Positions 1,903 through 25,200 of a stretch of 32,952 nucleotides of DNA are shown piece after piece (the first letter of the stretch is position 1; every line of letters starts with the position of its first letter). Both the position numbers and the translations under genes were made by a program. The notes beneath the pieces were generated by a model. The model was not told where the DNA came from and searched no databases. It worked only from the letters and a program-made list of their open reading frames with translations. Source of the DNA: Nitrosomonas sp. (GTDB lineage: Bacteria; Pseudomonadota; Gammaproteobacteria; Burkholderiales; Nitrosomonadaceae); the NCBI GenBank assembly GCA_021774075.1, contig JAJFJK010000057.1, positions 1 to 32,952 on the forward strand. Reading direction: 5' to 3'.

Positions 1903-3090
1903 GTGGCTTACGTTTTGCGGAACTACAAACTCATTAGTTTTCATGTGATCAGGTATCGGTTCTTTATTGCCTTAATTCTAAGGTGCGCTTTACTTGGCTT
2001 GTTGTTAATCATTCAACCCTTGGAAGCGGCAAATGATGGGTTACAGCACATTACTGAGGAAAATGTGCTCGAAGTGTACGTGCGTGATGGTTGTCCACAC
2101 TGCGCAAAAGCTAAGAAATTCCTGTTGGAATTTGGCCACGACCGACCATGGTTACGTATTGTTTACCGTTCGGTAGATCATGATTCGGATGCACGCAACG
2201 ACCTGCTGAGATACGCCCAAGCGGCAGGTATTTGGCCGGTTGGTGTGCCAACTTTTCGTTTCAATAATCAGTTGCTAGCCGGTTTTGATAGTCCAGAGCA
2301 CACTGGTGCTTCATTGGCTGCTTTGCTTGAACAGCGTGTAATAGATTCAGAGCGTGTTGAAACGGTGCTGTTTGGAACGTTGAGCGTCTCTAATTTAGGT
2401 CTGCCGCTATTTACGTTGGCAATGGGCCTGCTGGACGGGTTTAATCCATGTGCGATGTGGGTATTGCTATTTTTACTTTCCCTACTTGTTCATATACAAA
2501 ATCGCAAAAGAATGGCGCTGATTGCAGGCACTTTTGTGCTGGTAAGTGGTGCAGTCTATTATGCGTTCATGGCAGCTTGGCTCAATGTCTTTTTGTTAAT
2601 TGGAATCTCAACCGCCTTACGGTGGGTGCTGGGTGGTATGGCATTAGCGATCGGCGGCCTTAATGTGAAGGATTTCTTTATTTGGAAACGGGGGTTTTCA
2701 TTATCCATTCCAGATTCTTCCAAACCTGATTTATATGCGCGCATGAGAGCGATACTCACTGCCGACAAGCTGTTGCCTGCTCTGATAGCAGTTGCCACAC
2801 TTGCTGTTTTGGTCAATTTTATCGAGTTATTGTGTACCGCCGGATTTCCAGCAATATATACTGCCGTATTGGTTCAGCAAGAATTGAGTCCGATAACATA
2901 TTATGCGTATCTGGGACTTTATATTTTTGGTTACGTGGCCGACGATTCACTAATGGTCGCGACTGCAGTCATTGCATTGAGCAGCCGCAAGCTCACAGAA
3001 CAGGCGGGACGCTGGCTGAAGCTCATAAGCGGTGTTGTTATGCTCGGCTTAGGCGGCATGATGATACTGCGCCCAGAATGGTTGATATAG
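1903..3090 (+). CDS. Glutaredoxin/thioredoxin-fold domain fused to multi-TM (DsbD/CcdA-like) membrane domain
   Basis: 395 aa (GTG start; true start may be downstream); N-terminal YVRDGCPHCAKAKKFL redox motif, then several TM helices including FNPCAMWVLLFLLSLL and ELLCTAGFPAIYT, conserved Cys/Pro typical of DsbD-family helices. Confidence 0.75.
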   Translation: MAYVLRNYKLISFHVIRYRFFIALILRCALLGLLLIIQPLEAANDGLQHITEENVLEVYVRDGCPHCAKAKKFLLEFGHDRPWLRIVYRSVDHDSDARNDLLRYAQAAGIWPVGVPTFRFNNQLLAGFDSPEHTGASLAALLEQRVIDSERVETVLFGTLSVSNLGLPLFTLAMGLLDGFNPCAMWVLLFLLSLLVHIQNRKRMALIAGTFVLVSGAVYYAFMAAWLNVFLLIGISTALRWVLGGMALAIGGLNVKDFFIWKRGFSLSIPDSSKPDLYARMRAILTADKLLPALIAVATLAVLVNFIELLCTAGFPAIYTAVLVQQELSPITYYAYLGLYIFGYVADDSLMVATAVIALSSRKLTEQAGRWLKLISGVVMLGLGGMMILRPEWLI

Positions 3091-3146
3091 TTTCTACATG
3101 GCGTAAAGCGTGACTTATCTTTCATTAAGATGAATGAATCTCGAAT

Positions 3147-4605: not shown

Positions 4606-4772
4606 GTGGTCAAGAAGGACCGGTCGGTTTTTGTAAGGTGGCAGTTTTCTATGGAAAATGCAACCAACAGGGGTTCGGAGTATACTCTACGTACTTCCAA
4701 CAACACTTAGCCGAAATTGTTTTAGTCCTGCACCTGTCTCACAAAATTTTGATTAAGATATTTTCTCCGACT

Positions 4773-5006
4773 ATGCATCCACGCGCCCTCATCGCTATAT
4801 TTCTGAATTTTGCCAACCAGCTAAAATTCAGAAACCTTTTTCTAATTGTCACCGGACTATTTTTTATCGACCTGTTAATTCCAGATTTCATCCCTTTAAT
4901 CGACGAAATCATTCTCGGTTTGCTGGCGATTATCCTGGCTAATTGGAAGGGTGAAAGGAAAAAGGAAAAAGAGGGAAACGTTAATGAACCTAAAAACCTT
5001 AGTTGA
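4773..5006 (+). CDS. Small membrane protein, DUF6116-like
   Basis: 77 aa from internal ATG 4773: MHPRALIAIFLNFANQLKFRNLFLIVTGLFFIDLLIPDFIPLIDEIILGLLAIILANWK...; the longer ORF start at 4599 is not supported. Confidence 0.65.
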   Translation: MHPRALIAIFLNFANQLKFRNLFLIVTGLFFIDLLIPDFIPLIDEIILGLLAIILANWKGERKKEKEGNVNEPKNLS

Positions 5007-5056
5007 ATGGTTTTTAGAGTGCGTTGTTGTTTGTTTTTGATTAAGGAATGATAGTG

Positions 5057-5458
5057 ATGGTGCATATGCTGGTGTGGATGTCCGGGAACAGCATGTCGTG
5101 CATGGTCGCTTAACTGGGCGTCAAACCACTGATGGATTGCCTTGATAAATTGTGGTGATTTGGTGGCGTATTTAATCTGCGCGCCATCAGGAAGAGCCAT
5201 GTATTCAATCTTGATCTGGTCAGGATTGGCTGTTTTTAATTCAGCTAATCCTGGCATATCTTCGCCGTGAATGTGTGCTGGATTGGAAAAATCACCTTGT
5301 CTGAATTCTTCAGAAATTTCCGATAGATGATCTCGTATCAATTGAATCAGTCCAGAATCGGATTTGTCTTTGGCGATAACCTGTTGGATCCTGCCATTGG
5401 CTGTTTTGGAAAAAACATGTCTCGTTTTCTCCAGATCAAATGGCATGACATGCATACC
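5057..5458 (-). pseudogene. 5'-truncated copy of the secreted His-tailed protein encoded at 7920-8432
   Basis: Colinear with 7926-8327 at constant offset 2869 (no indels); lacks signal peptide and first ~36 aa, and lacks the native stop codon. Confidence 0.8.
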
Positions 5459-5617
5459 AAAAAACAAAAAATGGGGCGAACAAAAAGAGCCGTTTTTTAT
5501 GTTAAGTGCTGAGGTCCACATAGACAACTAGTATAGACCTGACCCCGTGACCGCGTGACCGTGACCTGCTTTGGACAAATCCAGTGAGCATGCTTAGCAG
5601 CTGAGGGTGCTGGCTGC

Positions 5618-5765: not shown

Positions 5766-7130
5766 ATGAAAATGAATTTAGGAAAAGTTTGTTTAGGGTT
5801 GGCAATTTATGCCACGACGGTTGTGGCACAGGCGGGAAATCAAGGACCTATGCCTGTCACCGACAATGATTTTTATCCGACACCATCCAATGCCAAAGTG
5901 GAACTTGGAAAGGTGCTGTTTTATGACAAAATTCTCAGTGGTAATAGCAACACCTCTTGTGCTACCTGCCACCACTCATTAACGGGCACTGGAGATGGTC
6001 TGGCACTTCCTGTTGGCGAAGGTGGAAAAGGCCTTGGCGTTACTCGTGATACCGGTAGTGGCAGTGATGCTATTCATGAGCGAGTGCCGCGCAATGCACC
6101 GCATGTTTTTAATCTGGGTGCCCAAGAATTTGCTGTCATGTTTCATGATGGACGAGTGGCAGTGGATAGTTCACAGCCGTCAGGCTTTACTTCTCCGGCA
6201 GGTGCGCAGCTGCCTTTAGGGCTTGATAACCCGTTGGCGGTACAAGCCATGTTTCCTGTGACCTCAGCCACAGAAATGGCTGGTCAATTAGGTGAAAATC
6301 CCGTAGCCGATGCAGCTGCTGCGGGAATTTTGTCAGGCGAGAATGGTGTTTGGGGCTTATTGGCGCAACGACTACGCGCAATTCCCGAATATGTTGCCAT
6401 GTTTCAGGCTGCTTATCCCAGCCAGATAAATACCGCTGACGATATTCAATTTAAAGATGCGGCCAATGCCATAGCCGCATTTGAAACCACTGCGTGGCGT
6501 GCCGACAACAGTCGTTTTGACCAGTATCTGCGAGGCGATAAACACATGTTGAGTAAACAAGAGAAAAAGGGTATGAAGTTATTCTATGGCAAAGCCAATT
6601 GTGGCAGCTGTCACAGTGGTAAGTTTCAAACTGATCAAGGTTTTCATGCGATTGCTATGCCGCAGATTGGTCCAGGAAAAGGACATAACTCTGATGGCTA
6701 TGATGATGGCCGAGAGGATTTTGGCCGTGAAGCAGTTACTGGTAATGTGAATGATAGATTTAGATTCCGCACGCCGACCTTGCGTAATGTTGCCCTGACT
6801 GCACCTTATGGCCATGCTGGCGCCTATGATTCATTGGAGGCAGTGGTTCGTCATCACTTGTCTCCTGTTGATAGCCTGTTTAACTATGACACTAGTCAGG
6901 TGCGCATGCCTTCACGTGCCGACTTGGATGAACAGGATTTTGTAGTGATGAACGATGGATGGCGCATAGAACAAATCGTCCAGCGTAATGAATTAGCCAG
7001 TGTTGATTTAGATGAAGAGGAGTTTGCTCGATTGATAAGTTTTCTGCATACCTTGACAGATAACTCTTTTCTAGATGATCGACACAACGTACCAAGCAGC
7101 GTACCTAGTGGCTTGACGTTGGCTGAGTAG
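5766..7130 (+). CDS. Di-heme cytochrome c peroxidase / MauG-family protein, exported
   Basis: 454 aa with signal peptide; two CxxCH motifs (CATCHH, CGSCHS), ELGKVLFYDKILSGNSNTSCATCH, RTPTLRNVALTAPYGHAGAYDSLEAVVRHH typical of the family. Confidence 0.92.
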   Translation: MKMNLGKVCLGLAIYATTVVAQAGNQGPMPVTDNDFYPTPSNAKVELGKVLFYDKILSGNSNTSCATCHHSLTGTGDGLALPVGEGGKGLGVTRDTGSGSDAIHERVPRNAPHVFNLGAQEFAVMFHDGRVAVDSSQPSGFTSPAGAQLPLGLDNPLAVQAMFPVTSATEMAGQLGENPVADAAAAGILSGENGVWGLLAQRLRAIPEYVAMFQAAYPSQINTADDIQFKDAANAIAAFETTAWRADNSRFDQYLRGDKHMLSKQEKKGMKLFYGKANCGSCHSGKFQTDQGFHAIAMPQIGPGKGHNSDGYDDGREDFGREAVTGNVNDRFRFRTPTLRNVALTAPYGHAGAYDSLEAVVRHHLSPVDSLFNYDTSQVRMPSRADLDEQDFVVMNDGWRIEQIVQRNELASVDLDEEEFARLISFLHTLTDNSFLDDRHNVPSSVPSGLTLAE

Positions 7131-7252
7131 TTTTCTTCAACAGTAACAAACAAATGGAAATTATGCAGCATTTAAGCTTATGGTTTGTGCCACGTAATTT
7201 TCCACAAATAATATAAACATTTCTTGATAACACTAAATCAATAAGGAACACT

Positions 7253-7768
7253 ATGCGTACAAAAATTTTTAATTTATCTCTTGTTATTTTTCTATTGTTA
7301 GCAGTAGCTTTTCTGCAACCTGCCCATGCCGGAAGTGAAAATAAAAAACAGAACGTCATTGTGAAATTGTCACATTTCGATGCTCTCAATTGGGAAGATC
7401 CTACTAAGGACGGACACAACTGGCAGCCTGCCTGTATGGCGTTAATGATGACTGATCATGTATTGGGTAAGAAGGTGGGGAAAAGATACAAAAATAAAGT
7501 CACGCTTTTCTTGGCCTTAGAGGCTGTCGAGATGGCAGATAAGGACACCGCTACTGACCTTTCAAGTTTCACATGCATGAACGGCCAGACGCTTCAAGAC
7601 AGGTGGGATGATTTAGTCAACAAAGGAGTCGATATCGCTGTTTGTCCTGGTTGCGCAAAAATTGGTGGCATTACTCCGGATACGTTGCGCGAAGGTTCCT
7701 TTATTCCGAATGGCGCGCCTGAAGTGACACGGATTTTTCTGAAAGCAGATAAAATTATTGATTTTTAA
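7253..7768 (+). CDS. Exported DsrE-family-like protein
   Basis: 171 aa, signal peptide LSLVIFLLLAVAFLQPAHAG; DsrE-like pattern with VTLFLALEAVEMADK and VDIAVCPGCAKIGGI. Confidence 0.65.
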   Translation: MRTKIFNLSLVIFLLLAVAFLQPAHAGSENKKQNVIVKLSHFDALNWEDPTKDGHNWQPACMALMMTDHVLGKKVGKRYKNKVTLFLALEAVEMADKDTATDLSSFTCMNGQTLQDRWDDLVNKGVDIAVCPGCAKIGGITPDTLREGSFIPNGAPEVTRIFLKADKIIDF

Positions 7769-7919
7769 GTTAAAGTAATTTAGCGGCGGGTTTGGATATA
7801 CATCATTCTAAGAAGACACATAAATACTAAAACCCGCTCTTCCCATTCCCATATTATTTAGCTCACATTCATTGCAAATAAAAAGACAACGTGTGAATTA
7901 GCTTCGTTTTCAGGAACAG

Positions 7920-8432
7920 TTATTTGTGGTGCATATGCTGGTGTGGATGCCCAGGAACAGCATGTCGTGCATGGTCGCTTAACTGGGCGTCAAACCACTG
8001 ATGGATTGCCTTGATAAATTGTGGTGATTTGGTGGCGTAATTAATCTGCGCGCCATTAGGAAGCTCAATGTACTCAATTGTGATCTGGCCAGGATCCGCT
8101 GTTTTTAATTCAACTAATCCTGGCATATCTTCGCCGTGAATATGTGCTGGATTGGAAAAATCACCTTGTCTGAATTCTTCAGAAATTTCCGATAGATGAT
8201 CGCGTATCAATTGAATCTGCTCAGAATCGGATTTGTCTTTAGCGATAACCTGCTGGATTCCACCATTGGCTGTTTTGGAAAAAACATGTGTTGTTTTTTC
8301 CAAATCAAATGGCATGATATGCATTCCGCGCTCTGTGACTTCGTCAAGCCGCTTTTCATCCGCTGGATCTGCGGCGTGGACAGGTATCACTGCAAATAAC
8401 ACGAGTAATAAAGATACGATGAATGGATTCAT
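7920..8432 (-). CDS. Conserved secreted protein of unknown function with His-rich C-terminus
   Basis: 170 aa, signal peptide MNPFIVSLLLVLFAVIPVHA; C-terminus HARHAVPGHPHQHMHHK. Confidence 0.75.
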   Translation of the reverse strand: MNPFIVSLLLVLFAVIPVHAADPADEKRLDEVTERGMHIMPFDLEKTTHVFSKTANGGIQQVIAKDKSDSEQIQLIRDHLSEISEEFRQGDFSNPAHIHGEDMPGLVELKTADPGQITIEYIELPNGAQINYATKSPQFIKAIHQWFDAQLSDHARHAVPGHPHQHMHHK

Positions 8433-8484
8433 TATTTTTTCCTTTCTGAATTATATCGTTCCGATAAATGTCTCAAATTGGGCC

Positions 8485-8523
8485 AGCATTCGTCATACCA
8501 ACCTTATAGGTATGACGAATGCT
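8485..8523. terminator. Perfect 15-bp-stem hairpin between two minus-strand genes
   Basis: AGCATTCGTCATACC (8485-8499), 9-nt loop, GGTATGACGAATGCT (8509-8523); no clear U-tract on either strand. Confidence 0.4.
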
Positions 8524-8545
8524 GAAGAGTACTCATCACATACGA

Positions 8546-9664
8546 TTACTGATCTTTGCCCGTTAAAGATCCCAGAAATGCTTTGATGTCTCTAATCATT
8601 CCATGGCCGACGTGATCTCGCCCAAGTTGATGTTTTGCCATTAATTTGATCGCTTCATCTAATGTTTCGACTGAGCCATCATGAAAATATGGTGCTGTTT
8701 TGGCAATATTTCTAAGGCTAGGGACTTTAAACGCTTTCTTGTCACTCTCGAGGCCAGTCACTTCATAGCGACCCATGTCTTCTGTTTCATAGGGTTCAAC
8801 AAGCCCGATTTTTTTATATGAATTGCCACCAATTGCAACACCATTGTGGCAATTGGTACAGCCCATACGCATGAATTTCTTCAGACCTCTTTTCTCATTT
8901 TTATTTAGCGCATCTTCATCGCCATTGAGAAAATCATCGAAACGTGACGGAGTTAATAGCGTGCGCTCAAAAGCACCAATGGCCACGCCAATATTGTTGT
9001 AATTAAACGGATATGCTTCTTGACTAAACGCTTCTGCAAAGAGTGTTTTATATTCGTCAATCGCTTTGATTTTTTGTACAACAGCGCCTTTATTTGGCAT
9101 ACCCATTTCAACAGGGTTTAAAATTGGGCCTAAAGCCTGCTCTTCTACATCATTGGCGCGTCCATCCCAGAATTGATCAATGTGAAGTGCTGCATTCATG
9201 GTGGTGGGAGAATTTCTGCCGCCACGTTTGCCTTCATGGCCTGGAGATGTTGGTTCATTATCCACACCATAATTGTTGAGTGCGTGACAAGAGTTACAGG
9301 AAATCTTGTCATTGACTGATAACCTTGGGTCCATGTACAGCATTTTGCCAAGTTTAATCAGAGCTGCATTCTTTTCTTCATCAATAATTGATGCAGGTAA
9401 AGGCTCAAAAAATTGTTTAACGTTGTTCATGCCATGCCCGCCACCATGCATGCCACCACCATGCCCATGGCCGCCATTTTCACCATCTTCGTGACCATGC
9501 TCACCGCCATGCATCATGCCGCCTTTATGCTCATGACCGCCACCATGCTTGCCACCTTCGTGCTCATGGCTTTCCTGGTGTTTAGAACCACCGTGGCCCT
9601 CATCGTCATTTTGAGCATAGGCCTGAGTACTTAATAATAGTGTGAGTAATAAAATAAGTTTCAT
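8546..9664 (-). CDS. Cytochrome c peroxidase-like protein with His/Gly-rich N-terminal extension
   Basis: 372 aa; signal peptide, then ~60 aa of HGG/HEH/GGMHGGGH low complexity, then CNSCH and CTNCH heme motifs and FKVPSLRNIAKTAPYFHDGSVETLDEAI. Confidence 0.9.
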   Translation of the reverse strand: MKLILLLTLLLSTQAYAQNDDEGHGGSKHQESHEHEGGKHGGGHEHKGGMMHGGEHGHEDGENGGHGHGGGMHGGGHGMNNVKQFFEPLPASIIDEEKNAALIKLGKMLYMDPRLSVNDKISCNSCHALNNYGVDNEPTSPGHEGKRGGRNSPTTMNAALHIDQFWDGRANDVEEQALGPILNPVEMGMPNKGAVVQKIKAIDEYKTLFAEAFSQEAYPFNYNNIGVAIGAFERTLLTPSRFDDFLNGDEDALNKNEKRGLKKFMRMGCTNCHNGVAIGGNSYKKIGLVEPYETEDMGRYEVTGLESDKKAFKVPSLRNIAKTAPYFHDGSVETLDEAIKLMAKHQLGRDHVGHGMIRDIKAFLGSLTGKDQ

Positions 9665-9783: not shown

Positions 9784-9987
9784 TTAATGAAAAGCAATAC
9801 CCGGTTTTAATCCCGTTTTTTTCAGAAGCTTCGCCAATGGGCAGAAGCCGCTGAAAGATGCCTGAAAGAGATTTGCGCCGACAAACGCCGTCAGCCATAA
9901 CCAATATGCAGAGTGTAGTTGCGATAACAACAGGCTTATAAGAATCATGCTGCCCGCGAATGCCATTACCATACGATCAATGTTCAT
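9784..9987 (-). CDS. DUF2892-family inner membrane protein
   Basis: 67 aa [61 protein letters not shown]; characteristic GFCPL motif. Confidence 0.85.
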
Positions 9988-10012
9988 GATTATTTCTCCT
10001 ATAGTACTCCGT

Positions 10013-11281
10013 CTATTTGAGTTTATTGATGCCCAATGCTTTTAATATGTAATGCTCGTATAAAGGCTCGGTTGTGCCTTTTCTGATTTTGTGCAGAAAA
10101 TATTTTTCATAGGCGATTTTGGCGAGATGTACCCATTTTCCGGATTTTGTCCAGGTAACATTACGCGGTGGTATTTGTGGGATTGCCACGAAAGCGACAC
10201 CGGTATCCCCCATATCGGCCAAACATACGGCATTCCATGTTGCTTCAGTGGATGGTGCTTTGCCATCAAGAGCGTCACGAATGTTATGTGTTGCTGCAGT
10301 CACCATTGATTCAATCATGTAACCACTTTTCGGCACGCCGACTGGCACAGGTGTTTTCTCTAGTGGCGCAATCGCGACACAGACACCAACCGCATAAATA
10401 TTCTCATAACGCGGGTTGCGTTGATATTTGTCGATGATAATAAAATCGCGCGGATTGGTCAGGCCTTCGATATTACTGACTGCTTCAATGCCGGTGAATG
10501 CCGGCAACATCATTGAATAACTAAAGGGAAGTTCGTGGCGTTGTTTTTCAGAACCGTCTTCATTGTGTTCGAGTACGTGCATCATGCCATCTTCAACTTT
10601 TTCTACTTTGGCATTAGTAATCCATTTGATGTGACGCTCACGTAGTAAACCTTCCATCATGGCTTTAGAGTCACCGACGCCACCCAGTCCTAAATGACCA
10701 ATATACGGTTCTGCTGTCACATAAGTCATGGGTACCTGGTCCCGCAATTTTCGTTTGCGCAAATCTGTATCCATAATGAATGCGTGTTCATAGGCTGGCC
10801 CGTAACAGGAGGCGCCTTGCGCCGCACCAACGACAATAGGGCCTGGCTTCTGTATGAAATCATCCCAGGCTGCCGCTGCATTATTGGCATGATCGACATG
10901 ACAAATGGAATGTGTATAGCCTTCCGGCCCCAAACCATCGACTTCTTCAAATGCCAAACGCGGGCCGGTAGCAATGACCAGATAATCATAGATCAGTTCG
11001 GATCCATCGCACAATTCCAGACGGTTTTCTTCCGGAAGTAAACGTTTAACCCCCACTGCGCTAAAAGTAATATTTTTCGTATTGAGATGGGGCGCGAGTT
11101 CTACCTTAATATCCGCTGGCTTGCGCCAGTTGACAGCGACCCAAGGGTTAGACGGTACAAAATGAAAAGTTTCGCTATCAGAGACCAGCATAACCTCATC
11201 TTCCTTGCGAGCAAGACAGCGCATCTCATAAGCCATCGACACGCCACCGATACCGCCGCCGATAATAATAATTTTTGCCAT
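10013..11281 (-). CDS. Sulfide:quinone oxidoreductase-like FAD-dependent oxidoreductase
   Basis: 422 aa; N-terminal [17 protein letters not shown] dinucleotide fold, [60 protein letters not shown]. Confidence 0.85.
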
Positions 11282-11316
11282 TATTTCTTCCTCCTGTGCA
11301 TTTTTACATGGGTTGA

Positions 11317-11622
11317 TTATTCATTTTCTGTTTCACAATAAATGCCATACAGCACTTCAAGTACACGGCGTGCACCTTCATCCTTCAAGGAATAATAAGC
11401 ACTCTGCCCCTCACGTCTGCATTCCACGATTCCTTCATGGCGCAAACGTGACAAATGTTGCGATAACGCCGATTGACTCAAACCAATTAGTTTTTCCAGT
11501 TCACCCACTGTGCGCTCCTGCTTAACAATGTTGCACAACACCATCAAACGATGCGGGTTTGCCAGCGTTTTTAGTAATTGCGATGCGGCTTGCGCATTTT
11601 GTTGCATATCATCCATATTCAT
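11317..11622 (-). CDS. ArsR-family HTH regulator, BigR/SqrR-like
   Basis: 101 aa; LKTLANPHRLMVLCNIV and SQSALSQHLSRLRHEGIVECRREGQSAYYSL HTH; Cys30 and Cys96 in positions compatible with the sulfane-sulfur-sensing Cys pair. Confidence 0.85.
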   Translation of the reverse strand: MNMDDMQQNAQAASQLLKTLANPHRLMVLCNIVKQERTVGELEKLIGLSQSALSQHLSRLRHEGIVECRREGQSAYYSLKDEGARRVLEVLYGIYCETENE

Positions 11623-11635
11623 ATTAGTTGATTCT

Positions 11636-11658
11636 TATATTATAATATACTAATATTA
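11636..11658. promoter_or_regulatory. Candidate ArsR operator(s) in divergent intergenic region
   Basis: Perfect 14-bp palindrome TATATTATAATATA (11636-11649) followed by TAATATTA (11651-11658), between divergent genes at 11622 and 11701. Confidence 0.5.
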
Positions 11659-11700
11659 TGTCAAGGTTTTTATAACAATTCAAATCGGAGTCTTGAAGTG

Positions 11701-14367
11701 ATGCAAAAAACATTTGCCGAGAGCGTTATCCGTTTCTCCCTGGATAGACCACGAACGATCATTTGGTCCGTGGTGATGGTGACTCTGTTGCTGACGACAC
11801 TGGCGACGCTGCCCAGTCTCTGGCCGCAGCAATTTCCCGCTTTGCAGAGTCTTAAGATAGACACTGATCCCGAGAATATGTTGTCCGAATCGGAACCAGC
11901 GCGTATTTTCCATAACCATGCAAAGAAAGAATTCTCGTTGTATGACATGGTCGTAGTTGGAATCGTCAATGAAGAGCATGCGAATGGCGTATTTAACACT
12001 GCTTCTCTCACTCGAATTTTCAAATTAACAGAATTCGCCCGGCAACTAAACTGGCCGGATTCTCAGGATCCCAATCAATGGGAAGGCGTTATCGAAGTTG
12101 ACATGATTGCGCCGTCCATGGTCGACAATATCGAACAAGGTGGTTTGGGTGCTGTCAATTTCAGCTGGCTGATGCCGCAACCCCCCACCAGTGAAGAAGA
12201 GGCTATTGCTGTACGTGATCGCGCTGCGCGTATTCCTTTCCTGCACGATACGCTGGTCAGCGGTGACGGCAAGGCAATTGCGCTCTATTTGCCACTGACC
12301 AGTAAACATATTTCCTACGAAGTCAGAAAAGCATTACTGGCGTATGTCGAAGATTGGAAAGGAACTGGTGATCAAATTTTTATCACGGGTTTGCCGGTGG
12401 CAGAAGACACCTTTGGTGTCGAAATGTTTGTTCAAATGGCTGTATCGGCACCGCTGGCGATGCTGGTGATCTTTTGTCTTCTGTGGTGGTTTTTTCGGAA
12501 TTTCGTCTTGATCATCTCACCGATGATTTTAGCTGTGGTTTGTTCCTTATCCACCATGGCTTTGCTGGTTATTTCCGGCAATACCGTGCATATCATGAGT
12601 TCGATGATCCCTATTTTCATCATGCCTATTGCGGTGTTGGACTCGGTGCATATTCTGTCGGAATTCTTTGATCGTTATCCCCAAATTAAAGACCGTCGGC
12701 GCACCATAGAACAAGTGATGAGACACTTGTTTAAGCCGATGTTATTCACTACGCTGACAACCATTGCAGGGTTCGCTTCTCTGGCGCTGACACCAATTCC
12801 GCCGGTACAGGTATTTGGCATCTTCATTGCCATTGGTGTTTTCCTGGCCTGGTTATGGACTATTATTTTTATACCCGCTTTTATTATGTTGATTCCGGAA
12901 CATAAACTGGCAGATTTCGGACATGCTTCCGGTGATGTGGAAGATTCTACGCCAATGAGCCGGATGCTTCATCAAGTTGGCGTGTGGACATATGACCATT
13001 CACGAAAAATTATCTCGGGTACATTTGCACTAGTGCTCATTGCAGCCTGGGGTATCAGCCTGATCCAGATTAACGATAATCCAATCAAGTGGTTTACTGC
13101 CTCACATCCCATACGTGTTGCCGACAAGGTGTTAAATGAACACTTTGGTGGCACTTATATGGCTTATCTCCAATTTGAACAAGCCCCCAATAGTGTGTCT
13201 GTCGAGACTTATGCGCAATTACTGAAGCTAAGGTTGAAAGTACGCAAAACACAGTCTGTAGACAATGGATTCTTATTTACTGATAAGGTATTCGATCAGA
13301 TTACCGACAAAATTGATTCCGGATTACCCACTATTGAATCTAAAAAAAGGTTGTTGTTTGCATTGACCTCGATGGCACAAGTCGCGCTTGATAATGCGCC
13401 CGACGATGAATATGACGCGTGGGATGATCTGTTGTTATTTTTTGATGAAGAACGTCAGCGTGATGAGGTTTTCAAACAGCCGGAAGTTCTGAATTATCTG
13501 GATAAATTGCAACAACACCTGCTTGAGACTGGCATTGTCGGCAAGTCTAATTCCGTGGTGGATGTGGTCAAAACGGTGCATAGGGAGTTGTTGCTTGGGG
13601 AGGATGCGGCGTTCCGCATTCCGGATACGGCCAGTGCGGTGGCACAAACGCTGATTACTTATCAAAACAGCCATCGCCCGCAGGATCTCTGGCATTTTGT
13701 CACGCCAGACTACCGTAAAGCGGTACTTTGGTTGCAACTGACCAGTGGTGACAATCAGGATATGGAAACCGTTATCAAATCCGTTGAAACATTTGTTGCT
13801 GATAACCCGCCACCGTATGCGCTTGAGCCACATTGGTTTGGTTTAACCTATATTAATACCGTGTGGCAAGACAAAATGGTGTCGGGCATGCTGGAAGCAT
13901 TTGCCGGTAGTTTCCTGATCGTTTTGTTAATGATGGTATTCCTGTTTCGTTCGCTGCTGTGGGGAATATTAGCCATGATCCCGTTAACAGTCACGGTTGG
14001 CCTAATTTACGGCATTATCGGACTCACCGGAAAAAACTATGATATGCCAGTGGCGGTGCTCAGTTCGCTGAGTTTGGGTCTGGCCGTGGATTATGCCATC
14101 CATTTTCTGGCCCGTGCCCGTGAAGCACGGAAAAATTATGCCTCATGGCGGGAAACAATCCCGGAAATGTTTGGCGAACCGGCGCGTGCGATTACCCGTA
14201 ACGCAATTATTCTTGGCGCAGGTTTTCTGCCTTTACTGGCAGCACCACTCATTCCTTATAAAACAGTGGGTGTATTCATCGCTGCTATTATCGTCTGCGC
14301 TGGTATTGCTTCATTATTAATTTTGCCGGCAACGATTCGAATGCTGGAAACAAAGCTCTTTCGGTAG
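11701..14367 (+). CDS. RND superfamily / MMPL-type (HAE3-like) exporter
   Basis: ~888 aa (GTG at 11698 or ATG at 11701); duplicated TM blocks, e.g. VLDSVHILSEFFDRYP and LSLGLAVDYAIHFLARAREARK. Confidence 0.88.
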   Translation: MQKTFAESVIRFSLDRPRTIIWSVVMVTLLLTTLATLPSLWPQQFPALQSLKIDTDPENMLSESEPARIFHNHAKKEFSLYDMVVVGIVNEEHANGVFNTASLTRIFKLTEFARQLNWPDSQDPNQWEGVIEVDMIAPSMVDNIEQGGLGAVNFSWLMPQPPTSEEEAIAVRDRAARIPFLHDTLVSGDGKAIALYLPLTSKHISYEVRKALLAYVEDWKGTGDQIFITGLPVAEDTFGVEMFVQMAVSAPLAMLVIFCLLWWFFRNFVLIISPMILAVVCSLSTMALLVISGNTVHIMSSMIPIFIMPIAVLDSVHILSEFFDRYPQIKDRRRTIEQVMRHLFKPMLFTTLTTIAGFASLALTPIPPVQVFGIFIAIGVFLAWLWTIIFIPAFIMLIPEHKLADFGHASGDVEDSTPMSRMLHQVGVWTYDHSRKIISGTFALVLIAAWGISLIQINDNPIKWFTASHPIRVADKVLNEHFGGTYMAYLQFEQAPNSVSVETYAQLLKLRLKVRKTQSVDNGFLFTDKVFDQITDKIDSGLPTIESKKRLLFALTSMAQVALDNAPDDEYDAWDDLLLFFDEERQRDEVFKQPEVLNYLDKLQQHLLETGIVGKSNSVVDVVKTVHRELLLGEDAAFRIPDTASAVAQTLITYQNSHRPQDLWHFVTPDYRKAVLWLQLTSGDNQDMETVIKSVETFVADNPPPYALEPHWFGLTYINTVWQDKMVSGMLEAFAGSFLIVLLMMVFLFRSLLWGILAMIPLTVTVGLIYGIIGLTGKNYDMPVAVLSSLSLGLAVDYAIHFLARAREARKNYASWRETIPEMFGEPARAITRNAIILGAGFLPLLAAPLIPYKTVGVFIAAIIVCAGIASLLILPATIRMLETKLFR

Positions 14368-14436
14368 TGGGTTGGTTGTTGGAAAGAATAATTTTCAACA
14401 AGTAATAATTTCTGATCAATAATGTGGAGGTACAAC

Positions 14437-15252
14437 ATGAACAAACTCTTAAGCCTAATCGCCGCGTGCCTTGTGTTTGCAAGTGGCCAGGCTATTGCGC
14501 AATCACCATCCGTCGATGACATTGTTCACCGTGCCAACAAAGTTTCTTATTACGCGGGTCAAGACGGGCGCGCTCAAGTAGAAATGACCATAACGGACAA
14601 TCAAGAGCGCGTGCGTAATCGACGCATGACAATCCTGCGTAAGGATGTACCTGAGACAGATATGCTGGAAGACGGCGCTTACCGGGGCGAACAAAAATTC
14701 TACGTCTATTTCACACGCCCTGCGGATGTCAACAAAATGGGTTTTCTGGTTTGGAAGAAACTCGATTCTGATGATGAACGCTGGCTCTATCTGCCAGCTT
14801 TGGATTTGGTTAAACGTATAGCTGCAAGTGATAAACGCACCAGTTTTGTTGGTTCAGATTTCTATTACGAAGATGTGTCAGGTCGGGATATTGATGAAGA
14901 CAGCCATGAATTGATTGAGACGACGGACAATTATTATGTGCTCAAAAATACACCAAATGACCCGTCATCGGTAGAGTTTGATCACTACAAGATGTATATC
15001 CATAAGGACTCATTCATCCCGGTGCAAGTTGAATATTACGATGCACAAGGCAGCAAGTACCGCGTTGCCACAGCACTTAAGGTTGACACCATTCAAGGGT
15101 ATGCAACGGTCACCAAAGCCAGTATGGAAAATCTAAAGACTGGTAGCAAAACGGTGATGGAATACAGTGATGTGGAATACGATATTGGTCTGCCTGATGA
15201 TATCTTTAGCGAACGTTATTTGCGCAAGCCGCCAAGAAAATTTCTGCGTTAA
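14437..15252 (+). CDS. Outer membrane lipoprotein-sorting protein (LolA-like)
   Basis: 271 aa from ATG 14437 (GGAGG upstream), signal peptide; MTITDNQERVRNRRMTILRKDV...KFYVYFTRPADVNKMGFLVWKKLDSDDERWLYLPALDLVKRIAASDKRTSFVGSDFYYEDVSGRDIDEDSHEL. Confidence 0.85.
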   Translation: MNKLLSLIAACLVFASGQAIAQSPSVDDIVHRANKVSYYAGQDGRAQVEMTITDNQERVRNRRMTILRKDVPETDMLEDGAYRGEQKFYVYFTRPADVNKMGFLVWKKLDSDDERWLYLPALDLVKRIAASDKRTSFVGSDFYYEDVSGRDIDEDSHELIETTDNYYVLKNTPNDPSSVEFDHYKMYIHKDSFIPVQVEYYDAQGSKYRVATALKVDTIQGYATVTKASMENLKTGSKTVMEYSDVEYDIGLPDDIFSERYLRKPPRKFLR

Positions 15253-16724
15253 TGAAATCATCCGTCATTCTATTTTTTTTCTATTGGCTGATTATATTAC
15301 CGGTCATGGCGCAAGAACCGGCTTTGCCGGCGGGACTCGGCAAAGATAATAGCAACGAGCCAGATCTGCCCGCTGGTCTCACCATCAAGAAACCGGTGTT
15401 GCCCAAAGATCAGGGTGACGAGCCTGCTTTACCCAGCGGATTGGAGAGTGTGCCAGCGCCAGCATTACCGGAAAAGCCAAGTGCGGAAAATGATACCGAA
15501 TCTTTGTGGGATTCCTGGGCAGATGCGAAATTACCTTTTTCACTGACTGGTTTCTGGGAAGCACGAGGCGGTACGCGGGTGGTTAATGATGCGCATGAAC
15601 GTGGCACATCTATTGCAGAAACCCGCCTGCAATTAGAGCTAGATAAAAGTTTTCAATCCGTAACATTCAATCTGACTACAGATCTAATTTATGATCAGAT
15701 TGTCAAAAATCACAGAATAGACCTAAATACAGGCCGCGGTTGGATTGATTTGCGTAGTGCAAACCTAACTTTCTCGCCAACGAGTTTTATGGACATAAAG
15801 GCGGGTAGGCAGATACTCACTTGGGGTACGGGCGATCTGTTGTTTATTAATGATCTGTTTCCCAAGGATTGGAACGCATTCTTTATTGGTCGTGATGAAG
15901 AGTATTTGAAGGCGCCATCGGACACATTCAAGACTTCGTTATTTAGTGATTTGGCCAATCTTGATATCGCTTACACACCGGAATTTGATGCGGATCGATT
16001 TATCGATGGTCGCCGCATTTCTTTTTTTGCACCGCAATTGGGCGCAATTGCTGGCCGTAATGCTATCGCCCATAGTAATAGACCAAAAGATGGTGAACTG
16101 GCTTTACGCTTGTATCGCAACATCGGTGCCTATGAAGCGGCAGTGTATTTCTATGATGGGCATTGGAAAAGCCCGGGTGGTTTTGATCCAGGCAACAACC
16201 TTGCGTTATTTCCAAAGTTGCGTGTGACGGGTGGCAGCATTCGCGGCCCATTGGGAAAAGGTATCGGTAATATTGAAGTTGGCTACTATGACTCACGCGA
16301 TGATAACAAAGGTAACAATCCATTTATCAACAATAGTGAGTTTCGAATACTGGCCGGTTACGAACAGGAAATCGTCAGGAATCTGACGCTGAGTACACAA
16401 TATTATCTGGAGCACATGGTTGACCACAATAACTACCTGCGCACCCTTCCAGCCGGGATTCCTGCACGTGATGAGAATCGGCATTTGTTAACGACCAGAC
16501 TGACACTGCTAACACATAGCCAGAATGTAACCTGGTCAGTATTTGGCTACTACTCACCCTCGGATGAGGATTTTTATTTACGGCCAAAGGTTAACTACCG
16601 GGTTGATGATCATTGGATAGCAGAACTGGGTGGCAATATATTCGGCGGTAAAAATGTTCATACTTTCTTCGGTCAGTTTCGGGACAACAGTAATATTTAT
16701 CTGGCGCTTCGGTATGGGTTTTGA
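15252..16724 (+). CDS. Outer-membrane beta-barrel protein (DUF1302-like) with LPAGL-repeat linker
   Basis: 490 aa; start overlaps the upstream stop (TAATG); signal peptide, PALPAGL/PDLPAGL/PALPSGL repeats, then alternating amphipathic strands ending in FRDNSNIYLALRYGF. Confidence 0.75.
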   Translation: MKSSVILFFFYWLIILPVMAQEPALPAGLGKDNSNEPDLPAGLTIKKPVLPKDQGDEPALPSGLESVPAPALPEKPSAENDTESLWDSWADAKLPFSLTGFWEARGGTRVVNDAHERGTSIAETRLQLELDKSFQSVTFNLTTDLIYDQIVKNHRIDLNTGRGWIDLRSANLTFSPTSFMDIKAGRQILTWGTGDLLFINDLFPKDWNAFFIGRDEEYLKAPSDTFKTSLFSDLANLDIAYTPEFDADRFIDGRRISFFAPQLGAIAGRNAIAHSNRPKDGELALRLYRNIGAYEAAVYFYDGHWKSPGGFDPGNNLALFPKLRVTGGSIRGPLGKGIGNIEVGYYDSRDDNKGNNPFINNSEFRILAGYEQEIVRNLTLSTQYYLEHMVDHNNYLRTLPAGIPARDENRHLLTTRLTLLTHSQNVTWSVFGYYSPSDEDFYLRPKVNYRVDDHWIAELGGNIFGGKNVHTFFGQFRDNSNIYLALRYGF

Positions 16725-18001: not shown

Positions 18002-18301
18002 CTAAAATGGGTTTCGTTCCTGCGCTCCATGTTTTACATGAAGGATCTGAACAGTTCTATCCTGTATGCGGTATAACACGCGATAATTCCCAAATATCAG
18101 GTGCCTAATTTCGTACTCATAGTAACGATTTTCAAATGCTATAGGGCAACGTTCGGGGAAATCTTTTAATGTTTGTATTTTGTCATAGATAGCAAAATAC
18201 CAACGCGCTGCATTGTTCGGGGAGTCTTGGGCAATATAGAGGTAAATATCCTCTATCTCCTTTGCCGCTTCGGGTGCAATGTCAATCTTGTACTGCCTCA
18301 C
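18002..18301 (-). CDS. RelE/ParE-family toxin
   Basis: 99 aa: YKIDIAPEAAKEIEDIYLYIAQDSPNNAARWYFAIYDKIQTLKDFPERCPIAFEN...EIRHLIFGNYRVLYRI typical of ParE. Confidence 0.9.
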   Translation of the reverse strand: MRQYKIDIAPEAAKEIEDIYLYIAQDSPNNAARWYFAIYDKIQTLKDFPERCPIAFENRYYEYEIRHLIFGNYRVLYRIQDRTVQILHVKHGAQERNPF

Positions 18302-18575
18302 GCTTCAAACCATATTTTTTCTCAAATTCACTGAAAAACTCATTAGCAGGAATACCTTTTCCCTCATCATGAGATTTTGCCGCTTGCGCTATTTTCTCCA
18401 GCGCGTCTAATAAATCAACCATCTCTTCATAGGCTTTTGCATCTTGAATGACTAATTCGGCTTTGCCGTTTACGGTTAATATTTCAGGTCGTCCAGTTTC
18501 TTTTAACCGTTTGATATGCTCCGCAGGTTTGCGGCTAAAATCTGAAACAGGGTGTATAGCGTCCATTCTAAACAT
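18282..18575 (-). CDS. Phd/YefM-type antitoxin
   Basis: 97 aa: VSDFSRKPAEHIKRLKETGRPEILTVNGKAELVIQDAKAYEEMVDLLD; overlaps toxin start by 20 bp. Confidence 0.9.
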   Translation of the reverse strand: MFRMDAIHPVSDFSRKPAEHIKRLKETGRPEILTVNGKAELVIQDAKAYEEMVDLLDALEKIAQAAKSHDEGKGIPANEFFSEFEKKYGLKREAVQD

Positions 18576-19037: not shown

Positions 19038-19067
19038 ATATGATTACTATATGGTGTGAGGAATATT

Positions 19068-19298
19068 ATGACACATAGAACAACAATTACCCTTGATGAT
19101 GATAGTTTCGCGTTTTTGAATAGTGTTGCTGGTGATAACCGTAGTGCATATATCAATAAGCTTTTGAAGCAGCAACGTAAGAATGCATTAAAGGAAGCGC
19201 TACTTAAAGCTAATCAGGAAGAGGCTGAAGACACGAGCTATCAGGAAGAATTGCAGGAATGGGACAAAACAATATCTGATGGTTTAACCAATGACTGA
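19068..19298 (+). CDS. Ribbon-helix-helix-like antitoxin of MazEF-type module
   Basis: MTHRTTITLDDDSFAFLNSVAGDNRSAYINKLLKQQRKNALKEALLKANQEEAEDTSYQEELQEWDKTISDGLTND; GAGGAAT RBS; overlaps toxin start by 8 bp. Confidence 0.8.
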   Translation: MTHRTTITLDDDSFAFLNSVAGDNRSAYINKLLKQQRKNALKEALLKANQEEAEDTSYQEELQEWDKTISDGLTND

Positions 19299-19632
19299 TT
19301 TTAAGCAACTTGATATTTACTGGATTGATCTTGAACCGACCAAGGGTGCGGAAACAAAAAAACTCAGGCCATGCGTGATAATTCAAGGTGATTTTGTAAA
19401 TATTAAATCAAAAACCTTAATTGTTGCGCCGTTGCTCCCAACCCATAAATCATGGCCTTTTGCGGTAAACCTCAAACCATCCAAGGCGAATGGTCTTGAT
19501 AAAGATCGCCATATCAATTTGAAGAAATTACGGGCTATTGATGTCTCTCGTATCAGGAGAAAGCAAGGCAAACTTGAAAATCAATATGTTGATCTTATCA
19601 AGGATGCTTTGACCATTGTATTTGATCTGTAA
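19291..19632 (+). CDS. MazF/PemK-family endoribonuclease toxin
   Basis: 113 aa: LDIYWIDLEPTKGAETKKLRPCVIIQGDFVN...TLIVAPLLPTHKSWPFAVNL typical of MazF/PemK. Confidence 0.9.
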   Translation: MTDFKQLDIYWIDLEPTKGAETKKLRPCVIIQGDFVNIKSKTLIVAPLLPTHKSWPFAVNLKPSKANGLDKDRHINLKKLRAIDVSRIRRKQGKLENQYVDLIKDALTIVFDL

Positions 19633-19939
19633 ACCCTGAATTAGGTAATTCTTAAACACTCGAAAAATTTGTAATCAACACAAAACAACATCTTGACGGC
19701 GATTACCTTGTTGGGCAATGTAATGTGGGTATCCAGGTAAAATGACTCTTGCTAGTTTTGCCATGGACTCATTTTTACAGAATTAAGTATTATGTCCTCA
19801 GAACCCATGATATTAAGAAAAAGGTTGATGCGATTTGGTCTGATCTGGGCTGTAATTAAGTTACGTGTCCCCAGAATTTAAACCCTATTCCTCTTGATGA
19901 CTTGCGCTTGTTCCAGTGATATTTCTGTATGATCAATGA

Positions 19940-19960
19940 GAAAGGGCTTCGGCCTTTTTC
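19940..19960 (+). terminator. Possible intrinsic terminator
   Basis: AAAGGGCTTCGGCCTTTTTC: short G/C stem with T-run. Confidence 0.4.
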
Positions 19961-20010
19961 CCCGCACCCGAAAATATCAAGTAGTCGGAGCACTAGATCA
20001 CATCATACCC

Positions 20011-20610
20011 ATGAAATCCTATTCTGAAGCCGCTGAACGCAATAAACAACCGATTCTGGAAGTATTGCAGCAAGTTTTCGTTGATCGCAGCACGGTGATG
20101 GAAATTGGCAGTGGCACCGGGCAACATGCCGTATATTTTGCTCTCGCTCTCAATCACCTTACCTGGCAACCAACAGAACGCCCCACTAACCTTGCTAGCC
20201 TACGTGAAAGATGCAATGAGCGTCTGGTGCCAAATTTAGCTGAACCCATACCGCTTGATGTGGACGATGAATCCTGGCCTGTTTTAACTGTGGATGCTGC
20301 TTTTACCGCCAACACCTTACACATCATCAGCTGGCCGCAAGTTTGTCGCCTATTTACCAAAGTGGGCAGTTTGTTACCTGACGGCAGCACATTTTGCACC
20401 TACGGCCCTTTCAATATCGATGGCGAATTTACCAGCGAAAGCAATGCCAATTTCGACGCCTACCTGCGCGCACGTGATGCGGACATTGGCATTCGTGATA
20501 TTAGGGATTTAACCGTGCAAGCTAAAACACATAAACTTTTTCTGCAAGCGGATCACTCCTTACCTGCTAATAACCGCCTGCTGGTTTGGCGCAAGATTGT
20601 TGCATTATGA
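20011..20610 (+). CDS. DUF938 SAM-dependent methyltransferase-like protein
   Basis: 199 aa from ATG 20011: MKSYSEAAERNKQPILEVLQQVFVDRSTVMEIGSGTGQHAVYFA; class I SAM motif VMEIGSGTGQH. Confidence 0.85.
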   Translation: MKSYSEAAERNKQPILEVLQQVFVDRSTVMEIGSGTGQHAVYFALALNHLTWQPTERPTNLASLRERCNERLVPNLAEPIPLDVDDESWPVLTVDAAFTANTLHIISWPQVCRLFTKVGSLLPDGSTFCTYGPFNIDGEFTSESNANFDAYLRARDADIGIRDIRDLTVQAKTHKLFLQADHSLPANNRLLVWRKIVAL

Positions 20611-20978
20611 CTTTGCGTTATGACGGATGGCGCTGCGCTTATCCATGCTACCTTGCTGTGAATGCAGCTTTTACCGCCAACACCTTACACATCATCAGCT
20701 GGCCGCAAGTTTGCCGCTTATTCACCAAAGTGGGCAGCTTGTTACCTGATGGCGGCGCATTTTGCACCTACGACCCCTTCAATATTGATGGCGAATTTAC
20801 CAGCGAAAGCAATGCCAATTTCGATGCCTACCTACGCGCACGTGATGCGGACAGTGGCATTCGTGATATTAGGGATTTAACTGCACAAGCTAAAACACAC
20901 AAGCTTTTTCTGCAAGCGAATCATCCCTTACCCGCTAATAACCGCTTGCTGGTTTGGCGCAAGATTGTTGCATTATGA
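20607..20978 (+). pseudogene. Tandem partial duplicate of the DUF938 gene C-terminal half (open frame, ATGA-overlapping start)
   Basis: AFTANTLHIISWPQVCRLFTKVGSLLPDG... to NNRLLVWRKIVAL* repeats at a constant offset of 368 bp; lacks the SAM-binding motif. Confidence 0.85.
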
Positions 20979-22011: not shown

Positions 22012-22225
22012 TTAACATGCATCAATTATCTTACCATTAATTTGATACAGAATTAATCGGCGGTTCATGAATTTCCAGCATACTTCATAGGTGAATCCAA
22101 AGTTTTGTATGACCCCAACGATAATCAGTCTGCGTCAGTTTACCTGTTGATGAGTCACAAGCATTGGTGATAACGTCTGGCAGGGTTACGCAGGCTTCTT
22201 GCAACGATGTTAAATCCAGCTTCAT
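22012..22225 (-). pseudogene. Frameshifted nucleotidyltransferase-substrate-binding (HI0074-like) gene
   Basis: MKLDLTSLQEACVTLPDVITNACDSSTGKLTQTDYRWG, then after a shift near a GGGG run VIQNFGFTYEVCWKFMNRRLILYQ, matching the family hallmark IQxFEFTYELxWK. Confidence 0.6.
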
Positions 22226-25200
22226 ATCTTTTCTTCAATATTATTCGCCATATGAATTGGTTTACGTCTTTCCTGCCACTGAAGCACCACGCTGTAAATA
22301 ACCGGAAATATCAACAGGCTGAGTATCAATACGGTTAGCATACCACCCAGTACTGGCGCGGCGATGCGGTGGGTTACATCAGCACCGCTACCGGTGGCTA
22401 ACATGATGGGGATGAGCGCAATCATGGTGGTGAATGCGGTTATGGTGACCGGTCTTACCCGCATGGCAGTGGCGGTTTCGATGGCTGTGTTAATTTCTGT
22501 CGGTGTTAGCAGGGTTTGTTTTTTGCGGCGCAAACGGGCGATTTCCAGATTAATGAAACTAAGTACCATCACACCGGTTTCTGCGGCAGTGCCGGCCAGT
22601 GCGATGAAACCGACATATACGGCAATGGACAGATTATAACCCAGCAAATATACCAGCCAGATGCCGCCAATCAGACCAAAAGGTATTGTCAGCATGACGA
22701 CAATAGGTTCAACCGCATTGCGAAAGATGACGTACAGCAGGAAAAAAATCAGCGTTAAGGTCATTGGCACGACAATGCGCATTTTTTCTGCGGCGCGTTC
22801 CATATATTCATATTGACCCGACCAACTGATGGTATAGCCGGTCGGGATGCTGACTTGGTCTGCCACCAGTTTTTGTGCTTCGGCCACAAAGCCACCGATA
22901 TCTGATGTTTTTAGATCCACATAAACCCAGGCATTGGGTCGCGCATCCTCACTTTTTATGGACGGCGGGCCACGTCGCAGCGTTAAATCAGCAACCAGTG
23001 TCAGCGGAATCTGTGCGCCAGTCGGCGTAGGAATCAGCATACGCTTGAGGCTTTCCTGATTATCACGTAATTCACGCGGGTAACGCAGATTAACCGGATA
23101 GCGTTCCAAGCCTTCTACCGTCTCGGTAATATTGATGCCACCAATGGCGCTTTGGATGACATCTTGAATGTCTCCCACGGTTAAACCATAGCGCGCCGCT
23201 TCCTCACGTTTGATGTCAAAGTCCAGATAATATCCCCCCATTGCGCGATCACCGAAAGCAGACAGCGTTTCCGGCATGGTTTTCATGACTTGTTCAATTT
23301 GTTCAGACAAGCTTTGCAATACATTCAGATCAGGCCCGGAAACCTTGATACCAACGGGTGTTTTAATGCCGGTGGATAGCATGTCAGTACGTGTCTTGAT
23401 GGGCATCGTCCATGCATTGGTTAGCCCTGGAAAGTTAATCGCCCGATCCATTTCAAGCATTAATTCCTGCGTGGTTTTACTGGGATCCGGCCATTCTGAT
23501 TTGAGTTTCAGGCGTATGGTTGTTTCTATCATGGATAGTGGCGCGGGATCAGTCGCTGTCTCAGCGCGTCCGATTTTTCCAAACACATGATGGACTTCAG
23601 GAAAAGATTTTAAAATTTTATCGGTTTGTTGTAACAGTTCCTTGGCTTTAGTAATGGATATGCCGGGAAACGTGCTGGGCATGTAAAGAATGTCACCTTC
23701 ATCCAGTGGTGGCATAAATTCACTGCCGATTTTGGATAAGGGGTAAATCGTCGAAGCCAGTAACGCAAGGGCCAGGATTAATGTGATTGAGCGCCAGCGC
23801 ATGGCCAGTTTTAGCAATGGCGTATGCACCGAATGCAACACACGGTTTGCCGGATTCTTATGCTCTGGAATAATTCTGCCGCGTATAAAATAACCCATCA
23901 GCACCGGTACAACGGTGATGGTTAAAATGGCTGCTGCTGCCATGGCATAGGATTTGGTATAGGCCAAGGGGGTGAACAGACGGCCTTCCTGCGCTTCCAT
24001 CACAAAAATCGGAATAAACGAGACGGTAATAATCAACAGTGAAAAAAACAGCGCGGGCGCAACTTCGCGTGAAGCTTCACCAATAACCTTCCAGCGTTCC
24101 TTATTGGTCAGTTCGGCTTTTTTCTTGGCAATGGCCTCGCTAATACGCTTGTGCGCGTTTTCGACCATCACAATAGCGCCATCAACCATGTCGCCAATCG
24201 CAATGGCGATACCGCCCAGTGACATGATGTTGGCATTAATGCCTTGCCATTTCATGACAATAAAGGCCATCAGAATACCTAATGGTAATGTAATAATAAT
24301 CACCAGCGAGGAGCGCAGATGGAGTAAAAATAAGGAAACTAACAAACTGACAATAATCAGTTCCTGGATCAATGCGGTGTTGAGCGTATCCACGGCCTGC
24401 TGGATCAGATCACCGCGATCATAGACGGTGACAATCTCAACGCCTTCGGGCAGACCTTGTTTGAGCTCTTCCAGTTTCTCGCGGATACCGAATATGGTCT
24501 TTTGTGCATTCTCGCCAAAGCGCATAATTACCACACCACCAACGACTTCACCTTCACCGTTTAGCTCAACCACGCCACGACGCAGTTCCGGCCCTATCTG
24601 CACATGCGCGACATCCTGCAGACGCACGGGTGTGCCATTGCTGTCAAAACCGACTGGAATACTTTGAATATCTTTTAGTGATTGAATATACCCCAGGCCA
24701 CGCACCATATATTCCGTTTCGGCCATCTCAAGCAGGCGCCCGCCCACATCATTATTGGAGCGCTTAATAGCGCGTTTTACTTTGGATAAAGGTATATCGT
24801 AGGCCAGCAAGGCATTCGGGTTGACTTCAATCTGGTATTGCTTGACATAACCGCCAACTGAGGCCACTTCTGATACACCCGGCACCGTTTGCAGTGGATA
24901 ACGTAAATACCAGTCTTGTATTGAGCGCAGTTGTGCCAGGTCATGTTGGCCGGTTTTATCAATCAAGGCATATTCATAAATCCAGCCTACACCCGTTGCA
25001 TCAGGTCCTAATGATGGGTTAACCCCTTGCGGTAAGCGCGTACTGGCATAATTGAGGTATTCCAAAACTCGAGATCTGGCCCAATACGTGTCGGTGCCTT
25101 CTTCAAAAATGACATACACAAATGACAAACCAAAGAATGAATAACCGCGTACCACTTTGGCATGGGGCACGGCTAGCATGGCGGTGGTCAGCGGATAAGT

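Follow-up and report, generated by a model that had tools for sequence, protein, structure and literature searches.

Does one sensor of sulfane sulfur control both sulfide oxidation and an exporter that spans the cell envelope? The question is raised by six genes in a contig of Nitrosomonas sp. (JAJFJK010000057.1), analyzed over its whole stretch of 32,952 nucleotides (hereafter the window). The known targets of persulfide sensors include sulfur enzymes and sulfur transporters of the inner membrane; in this locus, a persulfide-type sensor appears to command an entire envelope-spanning exporter of hydrophobic cargo, with relatives in several phyla. Our analysis indicates that the locus is probably a two-armed sulfane-sulfur switch, co-controlling SQR and DUF2892 on one side and a trans-envelope exporter, perhaps of a hydrophobic, sulfur-related molecule, on the other.

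All six genes named in a first-pass annotation of this DNA were found in place in the list of open reading frames (ORFs). They form a minus-strand arm (ArsR, SQR and DUF2892) and a plus-strand arm (RND/MMPL, LolA-like and beta-barrel):

9784–9987, minus strand: DUF2892/YgaP-like transmembrane protein (Pfam; invariant Cys49)
10013–11281, minus strand: SQR of the Acidithiobacillus type (Pfam; C127, C159 and C353 invariant)
11317–11622, minus strand: ArsR of the SqrR/BigR/HlyU kind, predicted repressor (Cys30 and Cys96 pair; extra Cys68)
11698–14367, plus strand: RND/MMPL (HAE3-like) pump (Pfam; D315 and D798 conserved)
14437–15252, plus strand: LolA-like periplasmic carrier, PF17131 (Pfam; signal peptide; mature protein free of Cys)
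15252–16724, plus strand: outer-membrane beta-barrel of about 18 strands (model; disordered N-terminus with EPxLPxGL motifs)

The RND gene starts at GTG 11698 or at ATG 11701, the latter being the choice of the first-pass annotation. The LolA-like ORF opens at 14422, with the signal-peptide start, ATG 14437, as the likelier start, and is overlapped by the barrel ORF through TAATG. Pfam matches over the cut-off were obtained for PF11127 YgaP-like_TM (the DUF2892 family), Pyr_redox_2, HTH_5, MMPL and PF17131 LolA_like. An Rfam search of the whole window gave no matches, and a tRNA search found none.

The SQR showed full-length similarity to the Acidithiobacillus enzyme (E 6e-142 over 421 aa), and its family membership was borne out by the active-site residues C127, C159 and C353, which were invariant in 17 homologues. 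In the DUF2892 protein, which corresponds to the membrane part of YgaP, the Cys was likewise invariant (39/39). The SQR would oxidise sulfide, and the DUF2892 protein may relay sulfane sulfur.

The window ArsR contains three Cys, at positions 30, 68 and 96. A sensing Cys pair had been proposed for it, and on alignment C30 and C96 indeed coincide with the sensing pair of SqrR/HlyU in alpha2 and alpha5. The protein is 47% identical to Rhodobacter SqrR, matches the HlyU, SqrR and BigR structures, and belongs to the ArsR winged-helix family, with HTH_5 above the Pfam cut-off; against the BigR equivalog NF040642 (NCBIfam) it scored 99.9 bits and did not reach the 155-bit cut-off. The Cys pair was present in all gamma- and alphaproteobacterial ArsR proteins adjoining relatives of the window RND, and the planctomycete and desulfobacterial ArsR proteins beside the pump were without it. 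The best reading of these sequences is a SqrR-type repressor that senses per- or polysulfide, and from what is known of the family we expect it to bind DNA and to respond to persulfide. At four loci (L060, L063, L068 and L081), a different kind of ArsR, with other Cys positions and adjoining DUF302, was found upstream of the RND gene.

A phylogenetic footprint across the relatives' intergenic gaps, compared by eye, yielded the operator ATATTAG-N6-CTAATAT, which differs from the HlyU hlyA site TAATTCAGACTAAATTA (PMC4330345). The window carries two copies in its divergent promoter region, 16 bp apart and sharing one arm, together with two promoter-like sites:

11621–11640: predicted operator copy 1, ATATTAGTTGATTCTTATAT, one mismatch (phylogenetic footprint)
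11637–11656: predicted operator copy 2, ATATTATAATATACTAATAT, one mismatch, sharing one arm with copy 1 (phylogenetic footprint)
11637–11664, minus strand: promoter-like site of the ArsR arm, TTGACA-16-TAATAT (consensus scan only; overlaps operator copy 2)
11618–11646, plus strand: promoter-like site of the RND arm, TTCATA-17-TATAAT (consensus scan only; overlaps both operator copies)

Promoter-like matches were no commoner than in shuffles when counted over a wider region. Two palindromes had previously been noted in the gap, and both exist: TATATTATAATATA at 11636–11649 (0 matches in 100 window shuffles) and TAATATTA at 11651–11658. Their description as separate operators was replaced after comparison with the relatives, according to which they are pieces of two overlapping 20-bp sites, the palindrome of the first-pass annotation being the junction of copies 1 and 2.

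Operator sites with at most two mismatches numbered 49 in the 54 kb upstream of RND genes versus 9 in 1004 kb elsewhere, and four of these nine belong to a second ArsR-DUF2892 locus in L012. In a held-out count that left out the six ArsR-divergent source loci, and that is not perfectly blind as all gaps had been seen beforehand, sites with at most one mismatch numbered 27 in 50 kb upstream versus 3 in 917 kb elsewhere. Within 300 bp upstream, over all loci, 37 such sites were observed versus 0.04 in composition shuffles. Across the 3.49 Mb assembly, no site beyond the two window copies had one mismatch or fewer; a further 15 had two mismatches, giving a total of 17 per strand versus 25 for the reversed control pattern. 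A wider operator regulon in this genome was rejected, the two-mismatch sites being at background level, and we predict a dedicated, local switch. Operator sites also remain before the RND gene where the ArsR gene is absent or has moved (L011, L015–L021, L023–L025 and L029–L033); at L015, L018, L019, L021 and several methanotroph loci the operator lies upstream of RND with no adjacent ArsR. This retention before RND genes that have no neighbouring ArsR speaks for operator control of the exporter arm itself.

The conservation of the pairing was assessed from 80 RND relatives retrieved from bacterial genomes, 72 of which had sufficient upstream sequence. Of the 72 close relatives, 50 had ArsR, SQR or DUF2892 no more than 2.5 kb upstream of the RND gene, as against 0 of the 21 loci whose RND pumps are more distantly related (Fisher p ~3e-9); the loci are interrelated, so that p-values overstate independence, and many are metagenome bins with loose taxon names. 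Matches to the three partners numbered 82 in the 165 kb directly upstream of RND versus 11 in 525 kb of flanking sequence farther away, and 22 loci, about a third of the relatives, had none of the three in reach. The linkage was maintained through at least six gene orders: divergent ArsR-SQR-DUF2892, SQR-DUF2892 or DUF2892 alone; co-directional DUF2892-RND, mostly in alphaproteobacteria; and single rows of ArsR-DUF2892-RND (L080) and DUF2892-SQR-RND (L064). The survey thus found the association across phyla, and the arrangement is not confined to the window's genome. It is not a general property of RND-LolA systems, which was ruled out by the 21 control loci, among them the C144 paralogue in the window's genome, an RND-LolA-barrel set accompanied by a MarR gene with no sulfur genes nearby. 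At E ≤ 1e-150, 14 of the 369 genomes sampled from the window's class had the pump and the sampled same-genus genome lacked it, a patchy distribution.

Further upstream, the recurring neighbours were thioredoxin, DUF302, rhodanese, DUF6132 and OsmC genes. In the Fusobacteriota, plasmid pILYOP01 of Ilyobacter polytropus (L162 80–9221) carries selD, yedF and DUF3343 directly before carrier, barrel and pump, a possible selenium/sulfur link. An SQR was considered for that locus and rejected, its FAD enzyme being a CoA-disulfide reductase/NADH oxidase type, and plasmid-borne spread of the module was discarded as an explanation since Ilyobacter gave the one plasmid match (48%). The thread common to the loci is sulfur or selenium handling, not a single sensor. 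Given the conserved predicted operator and pairing, these data suggest that the pump is part of how cells deal with sulfur.

The locus resembles the SqrR, BigR, YgaV and HlyU regulons in its winged-helix ArsR, the alpha2/alpha5 Cys pair and the adjoining sqr, and differs from them in its second arm, a trans-envelope exporter. RND efflux pumps were listed among likely targets near Cys-pair ArsR genes in a published survey (PMC12423496). The bare pairing is common to that survey and this locus; the survey's main text gives no subtype for the RND pumps and says nothing of a LolA-like carrier, a barrel or an operator. As judged against that text, the RND-ArsR pairing as such was already known, and what is new here is the operator, the type of exporter, its spread and the tandem EPxLPxGL motifs on the barrel. 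A search of the open-access literature retrieved nothing specific on this exporter type with sulfide, on its operator or on its spread.

Gene identities, the Cys pair, the operator footprint with its exclusive target and the conserved linkage can all be read from the DNA itself. At this level there is good support for the earlier proposal that a single sulfane-sulfur sensor serves both arms, from the Cys pair, the two exclusive predicted operators and the cross-phyla association; the envelope remodelling proposed with it found no direct support. In the switch that we propose, the ArsR would bind the two overlapping ATATTAG-N6-CTAATAT sites and repress both arms. Rising per- or polysulfide would bridge C30 and C96 by sulfur, and the repressor would leave its operators. 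Derepression would produce SQR and DUF2892 alongside pump, carrier and barrel, and the proton-driven RND pump, the LolA-like carrier and the barrel would move a hydrophobic, sulfur-related molecule out through both membranes.

The exporter proteins bear on what that molecule may be. The pump passed the MMPL cut-off in two stretches (PF03176, 118.1 vs 20.5 bits) and remained below the curated cut-offs for HAE3 (TIGR00921, 167.6 vs 351.9 bits), HpnN (93 vs 751.85 bits) and BstA (36.2 vs 1400 bits); HpnN and BstA, which are hopanoid/sterol exporters, and MmpL also belong to the MMPL/RND superfamily, and the window pump falls far below the HpnN, BstA and HAE3 cut-offs. An intramembrane Asp is conserved in each half of the pump (D315 and D798), as is expected for proton drive in the RND family. 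By analogy with that family, the exporter is presumed to be proton-driven and to work in the direction of export. The carrier passed the LolA_like cut-off (PF17131, 206.6 vs 30 bits). Its model (pLDDT 86.6) had its best fold match in LolA3 of Porphyromonas gingivalis, a protein for which we know of no sulfur link. LolA3 (PDB 9tp6) was also the carrier's best sequence match (4e-32, ~31% identity), with TM 0.77/0.88 for the fold. The barrel did not reach the DUF1302 cut-off (PF06980, 20.1 vs 23.2 bits); its fold was predicted with good confidence as ~18 strands with a disordered N-terminus, and the fold search returned porin/AlgE-like matches of modest TM (~0.4–0.5) that gave no hint of cargo. 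As modelled, the two proteins are compatible with a LolA-like shuttle and an outer-membrane pore. Tandem EPxLPxGL motifs occupy residues 25–65 of the barrel, within the disordered N-terminus. At least one LPxGL was present within the first 200 residues in 56 of 62 barrel homologues, versus 11 occurrences in 947 other ORFs, and no ORF of at least 250 aa in the control loci had two or more. Our guess is that this segment serves as a docking tether.

The pump has no conserved Cys, and the mature carrier and barrel of the window have no Cys at all. Thiol-bound sulfur is an unlikely cargo for an exporter lacking conserved Cys, which leaves zero-valent sulfur or a lipid. With a lipid cargo, the co-regulation would be real and the cargo free of sulfur: the exporter would deliver a hopanoid-, sterol- or glycolipid-like molecule to the outer membrane, lowering permeability or repairing the envelope under sulfide. 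We regard this as a credible competitor, though not as the favoured account. RND and carrier families of known cargo mostly move lipids or other hydrophobic molecules, with HpnN, MmpL and BstA as the nearest profiles, and the absence of conserved Cys for sulfur handling fits such a role, as does the pump's occurrence in sulfate-reducer and planctomycete bins with no SQR detected nearby. However, no lipid-synthesis gene recurs beside the module, the recurrent partners being sulfur and thiol genes. If the cargo is a lipid, the locus would tie sulfide directly to the outer membrane. Our guess places zero-valent sulfur/polysulfane or another sulfur-related molecule slightly ahead of lipid. The narrower claim, that the module is dedicated to exporting zero-valent sulfur (S8 or polysulfane) through both membranes and receives sulfur from SQR by way of DUF2892, is put forward tentatively and is rather unlikely to hold in full. 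A sulfur route across the outer membrane must exist, by a mechanism that is unknown in Chlorobaculum (PMC12285230); such an exporter, if true, would be a protein route to extracellular sulfur, and the locus offers named genes and a predicted operator for the open question of the route by which insoluble sulfur passes through the outer membrane (PMC12285230).

It is improbable that the ArsR governs its own arm alone, with the RND operon sharing the gap under a control of its own. Divergent neighbours may have separate regulators, the plus-arm promoter calls are weak, and about a third of the relatives have none of the three partners, yet the operators are kept before RND genes whose ArsR is absent or moved, the linkage outlasts rearrangement, and L064 and L080 place RND in one row with DUF2892 or SQR. 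Similarly improbable is a response of the ArsR to another signal (a general thiol oxidant, organotin or metal), with the pump as detoxification efflux: the related E. coli YgaV was earlier reported to be derepressed by tributyltin (PMC9774250) and the window ArsR has the extra C68, but its Cys residues sit where the persulfide-sensing cluster has them, and HlyU, a member of that cluster, stays DNA-bound with peroxide or glutathione disulfide (PMC10509353), and SQR lies in the ArsR's arm at many loci.

The preferred reading, a sulfane-sulfur switch over both arms, concerns one of two such sensors in this genome. A second SqrR-type ArsR, 42% identical to that of the window, is encoded on contig C56 (L098 350–5886; ArsR at 2806–3126). 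Its neighbours, named from their sequences, are a DUF442-like/SQR-like fusion, a TauE-like protein, a divergent ETHE1-like hydrolase and a multicopper oxidase, and the locus resembles the known bigR operon of Xylella and Agrobacterium (PMC5823870), whose DUF442, TauE and ETHE1-like genes the window locus lacks. A common operator was rejected, as the C56 locus gave no match and has a different AT-rich repeat in its gap. We infer a division of labour between the two sensors.

Elsewhere in the window, two MauG/cytochrome c peroxidase-like genes and a gene for a DsrE-like secreted protein (7253–7768) lie next to the SQR arm (5766–9664), and near-copies of one small secreted-protein ORF occur on the minus strand at 4739–5527 and 7920–8432, the first apparently fused with other sequence. 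By eye, 18002–18575 and 19056–19632 were each named as a likely toxin-antitoxin pair, one RelE/RelB-like and one MazF-like. They are followed by a methyltransferase-like ORF and a partial tandem copy of its C-terminal part (19936–20978), and by a minus-strand CusABC-type heavy-metal RND efflux operon, also named by eye (22222–28001).
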